Source: Ferrithrix thermotolerans DSM 19514
GTDB taxonomy: Bacteria > Actinomycetota > Acidimicrobiia > Acidimicrobiales > Acidimicrobiaceae
Length of the DNA stretch: 64,000 nt
NCBI RefSeq assembly: GCF_900128965.1
Contig: NZ_FQUL01000007.1
Coordinates: forward strand, 1 to 64,000
Reading direction: 5' to 3'
In this document: positions 57,072 through 64,000 of the stretch, one piece after another
How positions within the stretch are numbered: the first letter of the stretch is position 1
How the letters are laid out: each line of letters begins with the position of its first letter
The notes under the pieces: generated by a model
What the model was told of the DNA's origin: nothing
The model's database searches: none
What the model saw: only the letters and a program-made list of their open reading frames with translations
Made by a program: the position numbers and the translations under genes

Positions 57072-57521
57072 CTATCGAGGCTGAGCTGTAGAACCATCTG
57101 TGGCCTCGCAGGCCTGGCACCGACCCAAGACCGCAAAGTGGCTTCTTCTCAGGTGGAAACCGTAGTCGTTGGCGAGTGTCTTGCTAAGCGATGCAAATAT
57201 CTCGTTGGGAACCTCTATCACCGATCCACAGCGATCGCACACTAAGTGTTGATGAGGATCGTCTCCGAGATGGTATACAGCCCGTCCATGGCCAAGATGT
57301 ACATGGTCGATCGATCCGATGTTCTCAAGGGTATCCAAGGTTCGATATATCGTCGAAAGGTGTATCTCAGGGTACCTTTGAGATATCTTCGTGGCTATGT
57401 CGTCAGCGCTTTGGTGACTAGGTCCCTCGATGAGAACCTCCAACACGGCACGTCTGGCAACCGTGGCTTTTAGACCTTGATGTTTGAGCTCACGAATTTT
57501 ATCCTCAAGGGGTGTATTCAC
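57072..57521 (-). CDS. Fur-family metal-responsive regulator
   Basis: A 149-residue Fur-fold protein. The winged helix has GLKATVARRAVLEVLIEGPS and HLSTIYRTLDTLENIG. The metal sites include GRAVYHLGDDPHQHLVCDRCG and a second CQAC pair at 131-134. It could be Fur, Zur or PerR; the sequence alone does not decide. GTG 57519-57521 is the start. It lies next to, but is separately oriented from, sdhCD, and follows the two-component regulator by nine bases. Confidence 0.88.
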   Translation of the reverse strand: MNTPLEDKIRELKHQGLKATVARRAVLEVLIEGPSHQSADDIATKISQRYPEIHLSTIYRTLDTLENIGSIDHVHLGHGRAVYHLGDDPHQHLVCDRCGSVIEVPNEIFASLSKTLANDYGFHLRRSHFAVLGRCQACEATDGSTAQPR

Positions 57522-57530
57522 ACCAAGAGT

Positions 57531-58238
57531 TTACCTAGATGTCTCCAGACGGTAGCCTAGCCCTCTTACTGTGGTTATGACCTTTGGGTCTGAAGGGTCT
57601 ATCTCAACCTTGGATCGAAGTCGCTTTATGTGAACGTCAAGGGTCTTTGTGTCTCCGGAGTAGTAGGGTCCCCATACGCGATCGATTATCTGCTCGCGAG
57701 TTAGAACCCGTCCAGGATTTGAGATCAGAAACTCAAGTAACTCAAACTCCTTTAGCGGGACCTTTACCACCTCCCCCCTAACTTTGACCTCGTGTTTGGA
57801 TGTATCGAGGATTATGTCTCCCACCTCGATCGTCTCGAACTGCTTCGTGCTGGAGTCTGGCTCCATTGGAGTTCGCCGCATAACAGCCCTCACGCGGGCG
57901 ACTAACTCTTTTAGTCTGTATGGCTTTGCTACATAGTCGTCGGCGCCAACCTCAAGACCAACGACAGTATCTATCTCGGTAGACTTTGCGGTGACCATGA
58001 TGATCGGAACCTTGGAGTGGAGTCGAATCTCTCGACAGACGTCAAGCCCCGACTTTCTCGGTAGCATTACATCTAGCAGAATCACATCGGGTCGAAACTC
58101 CTCGAACTTTCTCAGGGCTTCTTCTCCATCTCTTGCGGCCTCAACGAGAAATCCTTCCCGCTTGAGCCCAAGTGTCAGTACCTCGATAAACGACTCTTCG
58201 TCTTCGGCGATTAGTACTATGGGCTGAGTTCTTGTCAT
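57531..58238 (-). CDS. OmpR/PhoB-type response regulator (RegX3-like)
   Basis: A 235-residue two-domain regulator. The receiver has acidic residues 12-14 (AEDEE), phospho-acceptor D56 in VILLDVMLP, VTAKSTEIDTVVGLEVGADDYV in part, and conserved Lys in AKPYRLKEL. The C-terminal winged helix has VPLKEFELLEFLISNPGRVLTREQIIDRVWG in part. In actinobacteria the SenX3-RegX3 pair senses phosphate limitation; that is the likely role, but no pst or phoU gene lies in the window. It overlaps the kinase gene by four bases. Confidence 0.9.
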   Translation of the reverse strand: MTRTQPIVLIAEDEESFIEVLTLGLKREGFLVEAARDGEEALRKFEEFRPDVILLDVMLPRKSGLDVCREIRLHSKVPIIMVTAKSTEIDTVVGLEVGADDYVAKPYRLKELVARVRAVMRRTPMEPDSSTKQFETIEVGDIILDTSKHEVKVRGEVVKVPLKEFELLEFLISNPGRVLTREQIIDRVWGPYYSGDTKTLDVHIKRLRSKVEIDPSDPKVITTVRGLGYRLETSR

Positions 58239-59245
58239 CTCTCCTCGTATTTGATTGGAAGCCAGATAGTAAAGGTTGACCCCGTACCCTCTTCTGACTC
58301 GACAGTTATTCGCCCCTTGTGGTTTTCCACCACGTGTCTTACTATAGAGAGTCCAAGTCCAGTTCCCCCCGTTATTCTCGAACGGTTTTGGTCAACCCGA
58401 TAAAAACGCTCAAAGATGCGTTCAATATCCCGTGGAGGAATTCCTATGCCGCTGTCCTTCACCGAGATCAAGACCCATGTATCGTCGCAATTTATAGACA
58501 GAGTGACATGGCCTCCTTGATCAGAGTACTTTATGGCGTTATCGAGGAGGTTGTAGAGGGCTGAGATCATCTGTCTAGTGTCGATCGCCACGTCAGGGGC
58601 GTCTTTGTCCATGTCTACCTCTACGGTGACCTCTTTCAGCGACGCAGTCGTTGCGACTCGGGAAACCGCTTCGGAGATCACCTGCTCAAGACCCTGAGAC
58701 CGCAGGTCGGCAGAGCCGGAGGACTCGATCCTCGATAGATCAAGGAGATCCTCAACTATCCTCCCCAACCTAAGTGCCTCTTTTTCAACTCTTGCCGAGA
58801 GTCTAGCTAAAACCTCTGGATCGTTTTCGATCGACATAGTCTCAGCTAAGAGCTGCATGGCACCGATGGGTGTCTTTAGCTCATGGGATACGTTGGCGAC
58901 GAAGTCTCTTCTTACGTCATCGAGTTGTTTTTTGAGTGAGACGTCCTCTATCGTTGCAGTGAATCCAACTACCTGATGGTTGTCGATGAGTGGCGTGGCT
59001 TTCGCTAAAAAACTCCTTTTGGGGGGACCATAGAGCTCGAAGTCTTGAGTGATGTAGTTCCCATTGGCCGCCTCATCTATCAGGCTTTGGAACTCGCGCG
59101 CAGCCAGTGCATTGCCATAAGAGGTGGAGAACATCCGTTCAGCCTGCGAGTTCTTGAAGATCGCCCTCCCATCGATATCGCATACCACTACTGCTACATC
59201 TAATGCGTTCAGCGCTAACTCAAGGAAGCGTTTATCTTGAGTCAT
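58235..59245 (-). CDS. Soluble PAS-type sensor histidine kinase (SenX3-like)
   Basis: A 336-residue kinase with no membrane helix. A PAS domain covers residues 5-105, HisKA has H121 in VANVSHELKTPIGAMQLLAE, and HATPase_c has LLDNAIKYSDQGG (N box), VKDSGIGIPP and GGTGLGLSIVRHVV. Mycobacterial SenX3 has two membrane helices; here they are missing, so the signal must be intracellular or delivered by a partner. The start is ATG 59243-59245; its 3' end overlaps the response regulator. Confidence 0.88.
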   Translation of the reverse strand: MTQDKRFLELALNALDVAVVVCDIDGRAIFKNSQAERMFSTSYGNALAAREFQSLIDEAANGNYITQDFELYGPPKRSFLAKATPLIDNHQVVGFTATIEDVSLKKQLDDVRRDFVANVSHELKTPIGAMQLLAETMSIENDPEVLARLSARVEKEALRLGRIVEDLLDLSRIESSGSADLRSQGLEQVISEAVSRVATTASLKEVTVEVDMDKDAPDVAIDTRQMISALYNLLDNAIKYSDQGGHVTLSINCDDTWVLISVKDSGIGIPPRDIERIFERFYRVDQNRSRITGGTGLGLSIVRHVVENHKGRITVESEEGTGSTFTIWLPIKYEER

Positions 59246-59382
59246 GGTCTAGCCCCGGTATCTCTGTCCTCAGCCCTCTTTGGTGGCTGCTTTGTGTCTT
59301 CGATCATCAATATTCAATCTATGAACAAGGCATAAAAAGGCGATGCACGGAGAGCAAAATATCTCCGAAGTGATGATTTGAA

Positions 59383-59403
59383 TATAATGAAATGGTATAT
59401 AAT
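59383..59403 (+). promoter_or_regulatory. AT-rich promoter of the conjugation-like operon
   Basis: Two TATAAT boxes occur, at 59383-59388 and 59398-59403; TTGAAT lies just upstream (59378-59383). An inverted repeat CGGAGA-8-TCTCCG (59348-59367) sits above. AGGAGG follows before ATG 59436. The region is notably A+T-rich against its surroundings. Confidence 0.5.
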
Positions 59404-59435
59404 GTACTGAGCGATACATTTCAAGGAGGATGTAG

Positions 59436-59726
59436 ATGAGCTGGATGCTCTTAGATGTAAGTCTTTCTCCCAATCCGTCTCTGTTGCCTGGGGGATCGGT
59501 TCTTCAAAGTCTGGCTAACGGTATTGGAGGATGGGCGCTGGTAATCGCTCTTGTGGGGCTGGTGGTTGGAGCCGCTACATGGGCAATCGGTGCTCACTCT
59601 CAGAACTACCAACAAAGTTACTTGGGAAGGCGTGCTGTAATGGTCTCCGGAGCTGCCGCTCTTTTGATTGGTGGGGCTCCAGCAATTATCAATTTCTTCT
59701 TCCATCTCGGACTGGGGATCAACTGA
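59436..59726 (+). CDS. Small pilin-like membrane protein (DUF6112-like)
   Basis: A 96-residue protein with a short N-terminal segment and two hydrophobic helices: WALVIALVGLVVGAATWAIG and AVMVSGAAALLIGGAPAIIN. GAHSQNYQQSYLGRR lies between them. It resembles small membrane proteins at the head of actinobacterial SCO6880-type loci and, in general form, VirB2/TrbC pilins. The ribosome site is strong (CAAGGAGG). Its TGA overlaps the next ATG (TGATG). Confidence 0.7.
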   Translation: MSWMLLDVSLSPNPSLLPGGSVLQSLANGIGGWALVIALVGLVVGAATWAIGAHSQNYQQSYLGRRAVMVSGAAALLIGGAPAIINFFFHLGLGIN

Positions 59727-60913
59727 TGTGGCCCTTTGCTGTTGCGTCTTTGTTTACCGGGGTAGCCAACTACTTTTTGAGGCTGCTGCTTCGGACGCTG
59801 TCCTACTCCTTTGACAAAGGCTTGGAGACAGTCTTTTTGTGGTTACTCGGACAGATGTCGAGCGTCTTTGAAACCTCTACAGTATTTGACCCTACTGCGC
59901 ACTTCTTTGAAGTCGAGTACTCTTACGTGCTTGGGGTCGCAAAAGGTCTGGTTCTTCCAGGATTTCTTGGAGGTGTGATCTATGCTCTGTGGAGTGCTTC
60001 TATTGCCGAGGTCTTAAAGCTCGTACTCGTCCGCTTGCCCGCTGCAGTTTTGGCCGGGGGAGCGGGTGTTGCCTTTGTGTCCCTGTTGAACTCCCTAGTT
60101 GAGTACATTTGCGTTCCTTTAGAGGGCAACTCTGCCGTGTTTGCACATATCGAGGTGTTTGCCAGGAGCGTTGGATCTGCAAAATCGATTCCGATATTTG
60201 TCATTGCGATCATGTTCTTACTTGGTATCTTTGCTGAGTTTGCACTGTGGCTGGAGTTGATCCTGCGTAACGGAGCACTTTATCTGCTCACTGCTACTTT
60301 ACCTTTGACAAGCGTTGGGCTTTTGTTCCCGTGGGGTAGGAACTGGCTACGCAAGACCGCTGAAGTACTGTTGGGTCTTGAGCTGGTGAAGTTTGTCGCC
60401 TTGCTCGGCGTGTGGCTTTCTCTTGGTGCAGTGGTTCAAAGTACCTTGAAAAGCAGTGCAAGTGAGGCGATGAGCACCTTCTTATCTGGTGTCGCCATGC
60501 TCATCGTTGCCGTGATCTCCCCATACTTCCTTGTAAAGCTTGTACCGTTGGCCGACGTCCATCTAGCTGCTGCGCTTGAAAGCGGTTTTGCCTCATCGCT
60601 GAGGACTGTAGGAGCAAAGGCTGCCGATCTTGCGGCTCAAGGCTCTTCGCTTGAAAGTATCGATCCCTGGCCAGATATACCTTACTCAACGGATGAGGTC
60701 AATCTTCCCCCCTTCGAAGGCTATCCGCCTGTGTACGAGATGATCAGCGGCGTAAGACACTCTCCATTTTCCAGGCAGATGTTTGGTCTCGATCCCGACG
60801 TTGAACCAACAGAAGAAGAAGTCGAACGTCTTATGAGAAAATACGGAGTAGACCCAAACAGAGAGCGCCCCACGATCGACGGTTCTTTCGATGAAGGTGG
60901 TCGGGAGGAGTGA
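59726..60913 (+). CDS. TrbL/VirB6-like multi-helix membrane protein
   Basis: A 395-residue protein with about six helices between residues 60 and 285 (VIYALWSASIAEVLKLVLVR, IPIFVIAIMFLLGIFAEFAL, FVALLGVWLSLGAVV, FLSGVAMLIVAVISPYFLVKL) and a soluble acidic C-terminus (EPTEEEVERLMRKYGVDP). Size, helix layout and position fit the TrbL/VirB6 channel component of type IV secretion. ATG 59726 is chosen because it overlaps the previous stop; the open frame upstream has no fit. Confidence 0.72.
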   Translation: MWPFAVASLFTGVANYFLRLLLRTLSYSFDKGLETVFLWLLGQMSSVFETSTVFDPTAHFFEVEYSYVLGVAKGLVLPGFLGGVIYALWSASIAEVLKLVLVRLPAAVLAGGAGVAFVSLLNSLVEYICVPLEGNSAVFAHIEVFARSVGSAKSIPIFVIAIMFLLGIFAEFALWLELILRNGALYLLTATLPLTSVGLLFPWGRNWLRKTAEVLLGLELVKFVALLGVWLSLGAVVQSTLKSSASEAMSTFLSGVAMLIVAVISPYFLVKLVPLADVHLAAALESGFASSLRTVGAKAADLAAQGSSLESIDPWPDIPYSTDEVNLPPFEGYPPVYEMISGVRHSPFSRQMFGLDPDVEPTEEEVERLMRKYGVDPNRERPTIDGSFDEGGREE

Positions 60914-62262
60914 AAGAGGGATACTCGCTCACAGGAAGGAAAGCCCGTCCGATTCTGATAGGACTAAACGCAACCCAGCTGGCCTCTTTAGCTGCCTGTT
61001 CTATGGTGATCTTCGTCGCAGTCGTCTCAAAGAGCTCCGGATCTCTCTATTTAGTGACGCTGCTCTTAGTCATCATTATTCTGTCTATGACCTTTATAAA
61101 TAGACAGGGCTATCCTCTTGGGGTCCACCTCCTGATAGTGTTGGGTTTCAGACTCTCTAAAGACGCGAGCCCCCTGGAGAGACGTCACCGCAGAGGTGGT
61201 GTTAGGCGAAGGATTCGGGCATCGACAGAACCAAAAAATGCAAAGGATTTGCTGCACCTAAACCTGCGGGAGATTGACTCTGTCGGGACACTCCTTTTCG
61301 AATCTGGAGCAGCTCTTGGTTCTGTGGGTTTTGGCCTGCCCGCACGCTCCTACTTGTTCGGTGGCGATGCCGAGCAACAAGCGGTCGCTACTCGGTGGGG
61401 AAGTTTCCTGAATAAGTGCGCCGACCTTATCGAATCCAAACATGGGATATGTGTCAAGGTGGAGGTGCTCCCGCCTTGGCGATCTTTAGAGGTAGCTGAT
61501 GAGGGTCTATCAGAGATGGACATATGGCTACACAATGAGCTTAGATCTCGCAGCTGGACTACGCAGTCATCGTTTTGGATCGAGTGTGCGGTTGGAGGAG
61601 GAAAGCAGTTTCAGGTACCCGTCAAGGTTCGTTCGCTCGCTGCGGAGGTGAGTTCCCGATTTAGTTCGTTGTTTGATCTAGAGCTACGTCAGCCTGAAGT
61701 CGTGTCGAGCTATAGTCCGACGGTAAAGAGTTCTCGAGGCGAAAGGTCTTTGCGGATATGCTCTAAAGAAGTTAGGCAGTCCTATACCGAGACACGCCTA
61801 GATGATATCTGGTGTCGATGCTTTGAAGTGACGGGCTGGCCCTCCGGAGTTTTTCTACCGAGTCGGTTGTATCCTCTATTTCAAGCTATCGCTCCAGCTA
61901 GGACTATGTTCCTGGAAGCGAAACCCTTCGGTCGCAACCGCTCTGTAAGGACTGCGGAGCGCAGGCGTTCAGAGGCGTTGGCCAACAAGAGACTCAGGCT
62001 TAGGTCGGGGTACGTAGAGAAACTGTCCTACGCCTCTGACGAAGCGGAACTAGGTCGGCTCGAGTCCGAGGTAGTCGCTGGTCACATTCTTTTTTCTTAT
62101 CGCGTCGTCTTCGTAGTATATGGACGTACTCTCCTAGAACTTGCAACAGCCGAAAGAGAGTTGTTTTCCTTAGGCTCAAAAGTAGGAGTTGAACTGGTTC
62201 GCCTTGACGGTCGACACCTTGGAACCCTTATACAGCTTGTCAGGAAAACGGGGGGTGTGTGA
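60910..62262 (+). CDS. SCO6880-family protein (PrgI-like N-terminus)
   Basis: A 450-residue protein. Two helices at residues 18-62 (ATQLASLAACSMVIFVAVVS, YLVTLLLVIIILSMTFI) form a PrgI-like head. A soluble region follows that looks like the N-terminal, non-ATPase part of VirB4/TraC proteins (VTGWPSGVFLPSRLYPLFQA; FSYRVVFVVYGRTLLELATA; VGVELVRLDGRHLGTLIQLV). Together with the next gene it would make a split VirB4 (inference). GTG 60910 overlaps the previous stop. Confidence 0.72.
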   Translation: MKEGYSLTGRKARPILIGLNATQLASLAACSMVIFVAVVSKSSGSLYLVTLLLVIIILSMTFINRQGYPLGVHLLIVLGFRLSKDASPLERRHRRGGVRRRIRASTEPKNAKDLLHLNLREIDSVGTLLFESGAALGSVGFGLPARSYLFGGDAEQQAVATRWGSFLNKCADLIESKHGICVKVEVLPPWRSLEVADEGLSEMDIWLHNELRSRSWTTQSSFWIECAVGGGKQFQVPVKVRSLAAEVSSRFSSLFDLELRQPEVVSSYSPTVKSSRGERSLRICSKEVRQSYTETRLDDIWCRCFEVTGWPSGVFLPSRLYPLFQAIAPARTMFLEAKPFGRNRSVRTAERRRSEALANKRLRLRSGYVEKLSYASDEAELGRLESEVVAGHILFSYRVVFVVYGRTLLELATAERELFSLGSKVGVELVRLDGRHLGTLIQLVRKTGGV

Positions 62263-63491
62263 TGTTTTCAAAGACCTTCACTGAGAGCTCACGTTCTTTG
62301 GGGGTTTTTGCACCCTTCCTAAATACAGAGTTGCCCCCCTGTAGCCAAGTTGCAGTCGGTCTTTCAATGGGTGGAGGTGTATTTTGCTTCGATCCATTTC
62401 TCTTATATCGAAGCGGATATCTTTCTAACCCCAACATCTCGGTTATGGGAAAGGTGGGCAGGGGTAAGAGTGCCTTCGTGAAGAGCCTGTTGCTTAGGAG
62501 CGCCCAGTATCAAAGATCATTTTTGGTTCTAGATCCCAAAGGTGAGTACGGAGACTTTGCAGCAGCAACCGCTGCGGAGGTGCTTCGCATCTATCCAGGT
62601 GGATCTGAGCGGCTCGATCCGTTTTTTGGACTCCAAGCCGCTTCCAACTGCAGGGTAGAGATGATAACGGCCTTGTCAGAGATCGTGCAGGCTGTTCTGA
62701 GACGGCCTCTTGTCGCAACTGAGTCGTTGGCTTTAGAAGATGTCGTTGACGAGGAGCTCTCTCAACGTTCACGTCCAACTCTAGAGCACACCTTGGAGGT
62801 CGCTACAAAGTTGGAGGGTTCCCTGCGTTACAAGGACGAGAGAGAGGCGGTTATCTCCTTAGTCTCAGCGCTCCGTCGAATTTTATATGGGGATCTCTCG
62901 GGACTTCTAGGGACCTCTGAAAAAGGCAGAGATATCGGACCAAGAGCAGTTGTAGATCTATCCCAGCTCGCAGGAGGCGACCTCTTTGCTGTTGTGATCA
63001 ATCTGCTCATGGCACAGCGCCTGCGATCGATGCGAGCTGGGAGGATTCCGAAGGGATTCTTGGTGTTAGATGAAGCCTGGGCGGTACTTGAAAACCCTGA
63101 GTCCGCCGCAAGGTTTCGCTCCCTTTTTAAGTTGGCACGTTCATATGGGTCGTCAAATATATTTGTAACTCACAGGCTCTCTGACTTGGCTTCAAAGAAC
63201 TCTAACTCAGAGGTCGCCCAAAGAGCCCTGTCGTTGGCGGTTGACTCTGAAACCTTTGTCATCTATGGCCAGCCACCTTCCGAGATCGATCATGTCTCGG
63301 AGTTCCTTGGGCTTCCAACCCATCTCGCAAGGAAACTTCCTAACATGTCAAAAGGAGTAGCCATTTGGTCGCTGGCAGGCAGAATCTTTATAGTTAGACA
63401 CGTGCTTCACCCCCTTGAGGTAAGTGTTGTCGATACCGACCAAGCGATGACCGAAGGGCTTTTTAGGGATCCGACTGGACTTAGGCTATGA
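62259..63491 (+). CDS. VirB4/TraC-like secretion ATPase
   Basis: A 410-residue ATPase of the HerA/FtsK-like superfamily. Walker A is MGKVGRGKSAFVKSLLLRSA (64-71 core), SFLVLDPKGEYGDFA follows, Walker B is GFLVLDEAWAVLENPESAAR, and NIFVTHRLSDLASK is a sensor-like segment. It lacks the usual VirB4 N-terminal domain, which the preceding gene seems to provide. GTG 62259 or ATG 62262 starts the frame, overlapping the previous stop; its own stop overlaps the next ATG. Confidence 0.82.
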   Translation: MMFSKTFTESSRSLGVFAPFLNTELPPCSQVAVGLSMGGGVFCFDPFLLYRSGYLSNPNISVMGKVGRGKSAFVKSLLLRSAQYQRSFLVLDPKGEYGDFAAATAAEVLRIYPGGSERLDPFFGLQAASNCRVEMITALSEIVQAVLRRPLVATESLALEDVVDEELSQRSRPTLEHTLEVATKLEGSLRYKDEREAVISLVSALRRILYGDLSGLLGTSEKGRDIGPRAVVDLSQLAGGDLFAVVINLLMAQRLRSMRAGRIPKGFLVLDEAWAVLENPESAARFRSLFKLARSYGSSNIFVTHRLSDLASKNSNSEVAQRALSLAVDSETFVIYGQPPSEIDHVSEFLGLPTHLARKLPNMSKGVAIWSLAGRIFIVRHVLHPLEVSVVDTDQAMTEGLFRDPTGLRL

Positions 63492-64000
63492 AAGAAGGGT
63501 CGCTAATGGTCTTTCTTGGCCTATTGGCATTTGTCGTCGATCGCTACCTGGTCAAGAGACGGAGCGGCGTCGGCGCCGAGGCCAACCAAAGATCGAAATA
63601 CCGTACTCCTCGCTCCATGGCGACCACCAAAAAGCCAGAAGTACTTAGTGCTGCTCGCGCACTTGCGAGGTTGCGTAAAAGCCTAGAGAGTTGCGCCTCT
63701 ATCGTCGTCTTTGGTCCAACCCGTTCCGGTAAGACCTCTTCGCTTTTGCTTCCAATTCTTAGCAGATTTGATGGGTCTGCCGTCGTTACCTCAGTAAAGA
63801 AGGACTTACAGACTCAAAGCTTGGAGGCGAGAAGACGATGTTCAAAGGTGTTTGTGATCTCTGATTGCCCAGTCGATGAGGGATGTTTTTGGGACCCCTT
63901 TACCCAGGCGACCGATGTAGACAGAGCCCGGGAGATAGCCCATCACATGACTATAAGTTCAGGAGAGTACCGTAGTGCCAGTGCTGACTCTAGGTTTTGG
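63488..64000 (+). CDS. VirD4/TraG-like coupling protein, N-terminal part (cut by window edge)
   Basis: The frame opens at ATG 63488 (ATGA overlap with the ATPase gene) and runs off the right edge after 171 codons. A short hydrophobic N-terminus (LMVFLGLLAFVV) is followed by a basic stretch. Walker A FGPTRSGKTSSLLLPIL (76-83 core) and VVTSVKKDLQTQSLEARRR are typical of type IV coupling ATPases that dock DNA substrates. CFWDPF fits the next conserved segment. Walker B would lie outside the window. Confidence 0.8.
   Translation, partial: MKEGSLMVFLGLLAFVVDRYLVKRRSGVGAEANQRSKYRTPRSMATTKKPEVLSAARALARLRKSLESCASIVVFGPTRSGKTSSLLLPILSRFDGSAVVTSVKKDLQTQSLEARRRCSKVFVISDCPVDEGCFWDPFTQATDVDRAREIAHHMTISSGEYRSASADSRFW

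Follow-up and report, generated by a model that had tools for sequence, protein, structure and literature searches.

The stretch analysed here, the first 64,000 nucleotides of contig NZ_FQUL01000007.1 of Ferrithrix thermotolerans DSM 19514 (hereafter the window), ends in an operon for a minimal type IV secretion system (T4SS). Five genes on the same strand, running from 59436 to window-equivalent position 64828, each overlap the next end to start, with the junctions CTGATG around 59726, GTGA at 60910-60913, GTGATG at 62259-62264 and ATGA at 63488-63491. The contig extends 13.7 kb beyond the window. An earlier note, made from the letters alone, had proposed a coupled five-gene operon for type IV secretion or a process resembling conjugation. 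Both parts of this proposal hold: all four junctions overlap, matches to VirB4 and VirD4 were found (see below), and the T4SS gene order recurs in dozens of genomes, so that the arrangement is not due to chance. The A+T-rich promoter that it described is likewise present, as the leader has a GC fraction of 0.375 compared with 0.51 and is among the lowest 1% of 96-bp windows.

The first gene encodes a pilin, which with 54-93% identity is the most conserved protein of the block, and which matched DUF6112 at 3.3e-8 (over the cut-off) and TrbC/VirB2 at 1.5e-4 (under the cut-off). Profile searches with the second, TrbL-like protein returned no sequence match to any family; four of the top five matches to its predicted fold were R388 TrwI/VirB6, with weak E-values of 0.03-0.1. 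The third protein matched the SCO6880 profile NF042935 at 1.6e-13 and 50.4 bits, below the curated cut-off of 60, and is by this rule a relative of the SCO6880 family and not a member. Its predicted structure (mean pLDDT 82) has two N-terminal helices at the position of VirB3/PrgI, and all of its top 14 PDB matches were R388 TrwK/VirB4 (E 5e-10 to 1e-7). The fourth protein matched the VirB4 C-terminal construct 4ag5 end to end (E 2e-30), and genome G018 carries both halves in a single 836-aa frame (L069:1-2508), a natural fusion. The structure matches of both halves and this fused frame confirm that VirB4 is split over two proteins, with an SCO6880-like N-terminal half and an ATPase C-terminal half, as the earlier note had supposed. 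The complete VirD4-like protein matched T4SS-DNA_transf (PF02534) at 8.5e-19 and TrwB_AAD_bind at 5e-18. Family searches, on which all our genome-wide statements on the window's genome rest, detected one VirB4-like ATPase and one T4SS. VirB8 and VirB1 of monoderm T4SSs were found neither in the operon nor in its flanks, the remaining genome not having been searched for either.

Of 79 relatives, 56 have VirB4 homologues. At 22 of the 32 testable whole-genome loci and at 45 of the 57 testable GTDB loci (from genomes whose titles mostly name metagenome-assembled genomes of Acidimicrobiaceae, Acidimicrobiales or Actinomycetes), the block and senX3-regX3 are divergent neighbours, with fur and serS close by; at this site the block spans many families of the Acidimicrobiia. 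The loci found elsewhere are mostly clusters of another type with extra genes. The VirB4 tree recovered each genus and placed all fixed copies on one side of one branch, with a support of only 63. All genes of the block are under purifying selection (dN/dS 0.02-0.31). The T4SS was apparently lost in G011, G021 and G024; a true loss in G011 was rejected, as its senX3 site, where the contig ends, still has the pilin and VirB6 genes and the beginning of the SCO6880-like gene. Since the site is fixed across families and the VirB4 tree is congruent with the genera, the sequences show that the block is chromosomal and vertically inherited, and not an integrative conjugative element (ICE). Whether it was mobile or chromosomal had been left open in the earlier note; the fixed synteny, the genus-recovering trees and the lack of ICE genes now answer in favour of the chromosome.

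Table 1. Features of the T4SS operon and of its conserved neighbours (positions of the window)
Feature	Coordinates	Strand	Remark
Operon leader/promoter, A+T-rich	59340..59435	+	TATAAT box and block ATGAAA(N4-5)ATATAATGTA kept in four congeneric genomes
VirB2-like pilin (DUF6112), 96 aa	59436..59726	+	two hydrophobic helices
VirB6-like polytopic membrane channel (TrbL-like), 395 aa	59726..60913	+	predicted fold, weak match
VirB3-like helices and VirB4 N-terminal half (SCO6880-like), 450 aa	60910..62262	+	profile match below cut-off, fold match
VirB4 C-terminal ATPase half, 410 aa	62259..63491	+	Walker A and B invariant
VirD4-like coupling ATPase, 446 aa	63488..64000, on to window-equivalent 64828	+	cut by window end
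senX3-like sensor kinase	58235..59245	-	divergent conserved neighbour, marks fixed site
regX3-like response regulator	57531..58238	-	conserved neighbour
Fur-family regulator	57072..57521	-	conserved neighbour

The lack of a relaxase that the earlier note recorded stands for the operon and for the 13.7 kb beyond the window, but not for the genome: a single TrwC-family relaxase (PF08751) was detected on a different contig. No relaxase of the PF03432 family was found in the window's genome or in any of 13 genomes searched. The TrwC-type protein has 792 aa; its gene directly follows that of a pafBC-like double WYL regulator and is itself followed by an acyl-CoA synthetase gene. This neighbourhood recurs across most of the window's family, and the pafBC-relaxase adjacency was also found in six other families (G049, G061, G063, G069, G073 and G078). 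In G009 the gap between both genes is down to about 10 bp, which suggests that they form one operon there. The MOBF motifs are kept, with Tyr32/33, His153, His164 and His166 invariant or nearly so among 11 aligned proteins, and PF08751 was matched at 2e-38. Unlike TrwC and TraI, the fixed copies that were scanned have no recognisable helicase domain; such a domain is present in the TrwC proteins at L163 and L168, and helicase-bearing TrwC occurs in genomes such as G006 and G013.

Within the window's family the fixed copies in the relaxase tree, (g3,(g2,(g1,(g6,g8,g5)))) for the genera, have the same branching as in the VirB4 tree, and they are separate from the helicase-bearing copies. Relaxase and VirB4 distances correlate with a rho of 0.63 overall and of 0.52 between genera. 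The correlation of VirB4 or relaxase distances with those of SenX3 vanishes between genera, and covariation is therefore claimed for the relaxase and PafBC only. Judged from these trees and distances, the relaxase evolves together with the T4SS. In genome G056, from another family, a TrwC-like gene is the divergent neighbour of the pilin, VirB6-like, SCO6880-like and VirB4 C-terminal genes in a chromosomal setting. At this locus (G056:C26, L314:776-10118) an 837-aa discoidin-like surface protein is inserted before the VirB4 C-terminal half, flgL, fliW and csrA-like genes lie upstream, and virD4 was not recognised.

The fixed system also coincides with the lack of ComEC (PF03772): none of the 42 genomes of the window's family has it, nor does any of the 7 other genomes that carry the fixed system, against 25 of the 30 that do not carry it (Fisher p 8e-5 for the 37 genomes of other families). 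G049, one of the five apparent exceptions, has no ComEC and was at first taken to be without the fixed system; it was dismissed as a counter-example once it was found to have a senX3-linked block and a pafBC-adjacent relaxase. With G049 reassigned, all 50 genomes assigned to the fixed system lack ComEC (a few of them are incomplete genomes of the family from which the block was not recovered), and 25 of the 29 others have it. Because mycobacterial PafBC is activated by single-stranded DNA (ssDNA) (PMC11804915), the link to pafBC suggests that the system is under DNA-damage control.

We consider it fairly probable that the operon encodes the secretion part of a conjugation system that has been domesticated and is passed on vertically, which exports chromosomal ssDNA and whose relaxase is encoded at a second fixed locus. 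Sequence comparison shows that the minimal T4SS, its coupling protein and the relaxase, whose active site is preserved, are each fixed and under selection. The relaxase would nick chromosomal DNA, and VirD4 would recruit the ssDNA-relaxase adduct and hand it over to the VirB4/VirB6 channel, which would export the strand via a VirB2 structure into neighbouring cells, probably kin. Such export would stand in for natural transformation in cells that lack ComEC, and may be tied to DNA damage via PafBC. Conjugation may thus have been domesticated by these cells as a means of exchanging DNA of their own.

Several observations weigh against this interpretation. Its substrate, its origin of transfer (oriT) and its regulation are what we infer, and three congeneric genomes share no conserved element between pafBC and the relaxase gene that could be an oriT. 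A simple consensus search for PafBC-type promoters (TGTCR-N7-9-TANNNT) gave no site in the T4SS leader, and in genus g5 the relaxase has no pafBC nearby. The C-terminal part of the fixed relaxase evolves fast, and in many copies the N-terminal tyrosine region lies outside the Pfam match. The relaxases of g7 and of some outer families did not group with the rest, at low resolution. A cell-wall hydrolase, a helicase and VirB8 are not encoded in the operon. Finally, the genomes are related, and the ComEC pattern may reflect a single ancestral change.

Downstream, flgN begins one base after the virD4 stop and is followed by flgK, flgL and fliW (flgN-flgK-flgL-fliW region L002:10826-14103, window-equivalent 64826-68103), and then by the chemotaxis genes cheA, cheW, cheB, cheR and cheY. 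In the window's genus, transcription of these four hook-filament genes probably starts from the T4SS operon. Where members of the family are flagellated, the block leads into flgN/flgK, and linkage to flgK/flgL/fliW occurs in several genera. Four genomes retain the block with no detectable flgK (G009, G012, G020 and G022); in two of them, G012 (L067:11810) and G022 (L068), a flgN-like gene lies directly behind virD4, which may be a relic or a T4SS chaperone. Reading past position 64000, as the earlier note had proposed, met flagellar and chemotaxis genes, and neither an integrase nor a tRNA gene occurs in the 13.7 kb. An IS30-like transposase frame lies at the end of the contig (L003:3082-3702, window-equivalent 77082-77702).

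The alternative that survives best, although we regard it as unlikely, is a chromosomal T4SS that works without a relaxase and either serves protein secretion (a MOBless T4SS) or builds an adhesive pilus, the TrwC homologue at the other locus having another function such as repair or replication. It would account for an operon without a relaxase, and the very high conservation of the pilin fits a structural filament. However, a relaxase that keeps its catalytic residues is fixed in the same genomes and evolves in step with VirB4; in the window's genome the sole detected TrwC relaxase accompanies the sole detected VirB4-like ATPase; the relaxase gene adjoins T4SS genes in G056; and no candidate effector gene accompanies the block in a conserved way. 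Import of DNA by a machine of the archaeal Ced kind, in which the recipient draws DNA in via a VirB4/VirB6 channel, appears improbable. The minimal VirB2/VirB6/VirB4 core and the chromosomal setting resemble Ced/Ted (PMC9905601), and a further entry route would be useful to cells lacking ComEC, but the published Ced set (CedA, CedA1, CedA2 and CedB) contains neither VirD4 nor a relaxase whose active site is intact, both of them parts of a donor, and the ATPase scored 22.6 bits against the CedB family NF041017, whose cut-off is 700, and is not a member.

Two further explanations have next to no credence with us. Element-like clusters do carry T4SS genes of this kind in the same order, along with relaxases and further genes, yet an ICE or its decaying remains was ruled out for the window's block by the fixed synteny and the genus-congruent trees, to which purifying selection, intact frames, the lack of an integrase and flanks of housekeeping and flagellar genes can be added. 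That the T4SS proteins aid the export or assembly of flagellar parts, and are fused to the flgN-flgK operon for this reason, is suggested by the one-base gap and the linkage described above, but this was rejected because the block survives without flgK, has its flagellar genes located elsewhere in other genomes and occupies the senX3 site in families with no flagellar neighbours.

If the domesticated conjugation system is real, a clade with an inherited T4SS, coupling protein and relaxase and no ComEC is one whose cells took over conjugation for their own gene exchange. Bacterial conjugation is regarded as a property of mobile elements, in contrast to archaea (PMC9905601). We tentatively put forward, as a possibility that we hold with limited confidence, that in the Acidimicrobiia a fully domesticated, damage-linked conjugation, with the relaxase behind PafBC and the T4SS next to senX3, has taken the place of natural transformation as the usual way in which the clade exchanges chromosomal genes, and is a bacterial counterpart of archaeal Ced/Ups. 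Why lineages do without transformation, and whether DNA damage triggers mating, become testable. More broadly, our results suggest that SCO6880-type proteins are half of a VirB4 and that DUF6112-type proteins are pilins. A literature search, with most subscription journals outside its coverage, returned no description of such a system in Acidimicrobiia.

Among the closest known systems are the actinobacterial conjugative SCO6880/DUF6112 clusters (e.g., L058, L060, L066 and L132). A comparison of gene order, proposed in the earlier note, showed that they share the order pilin, VirB6-like, SCO6880-like, VirB4 C-terminal half and VirD4 with the block. They differ in not lying at the senX3 site, in other inserts and in usually having an extra gene between the pilin and VirB6, whose unnamed product of ~240-270 aa is absent from the fixed block (L058:5984-6700, L060:13580-14293, L132:5972-6772 and L136:6143-6859) and is a candidate VirB8-like part. 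In genomes with these clusters the TrwC relaxases carry helicase domains, whereas the fixed copies do not. The Salsipaludibacter cluster (L132:12962-17905) has a 1648-aa type ISP restriction-modification enzyme after virD4.

The T4SS of Patescibacteria (PMC12857230) is also chromosomal, belongs to monoderms and has VirB2-like pilins; it differs in being essential for epibiotic life and in having six pilins and VirB1 and VirB8 homologues. The nearest analogues are archaeal Ced/Ted and the gonococcal genetic island. Archaeal Ced/Ted (PMC9905601) is, like the system proposed here, a chromosomal and vertically inherited, domesticated T4SS derivative with a VirB2-like pilin, a VirB4-like ATPase and a VirB6-like channel, the last assigned here by a weak fold match, and in Sulfolobales there is a link between Ced and DNA damage (PMC9905601). 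Ced imports DNA, however, and its published set is without VirD4 or a relaxase, whereas here VirB4 is split and VirD4 and a MOBF relaxase at a second locus are present. The T4SS of the gonococcal genetic island (PMC12857230) resembles our system in that it is encoded on the chromosome, includes a relaxase and secretes chromosomal ssDNA, an export which we infer here. It is an F-like diderm machine on a genetic island, with its own oriT and a MOBH relaxase in a naturally competent host; the Acidimicrobiia system is clade-wide and vertically inherited, has a MOBF relaxase standing apart and occurs in cells lacking ComEC. The system described here has a different set of parts from either of these two analogues, and its two-locus layout also sets it apart from them.

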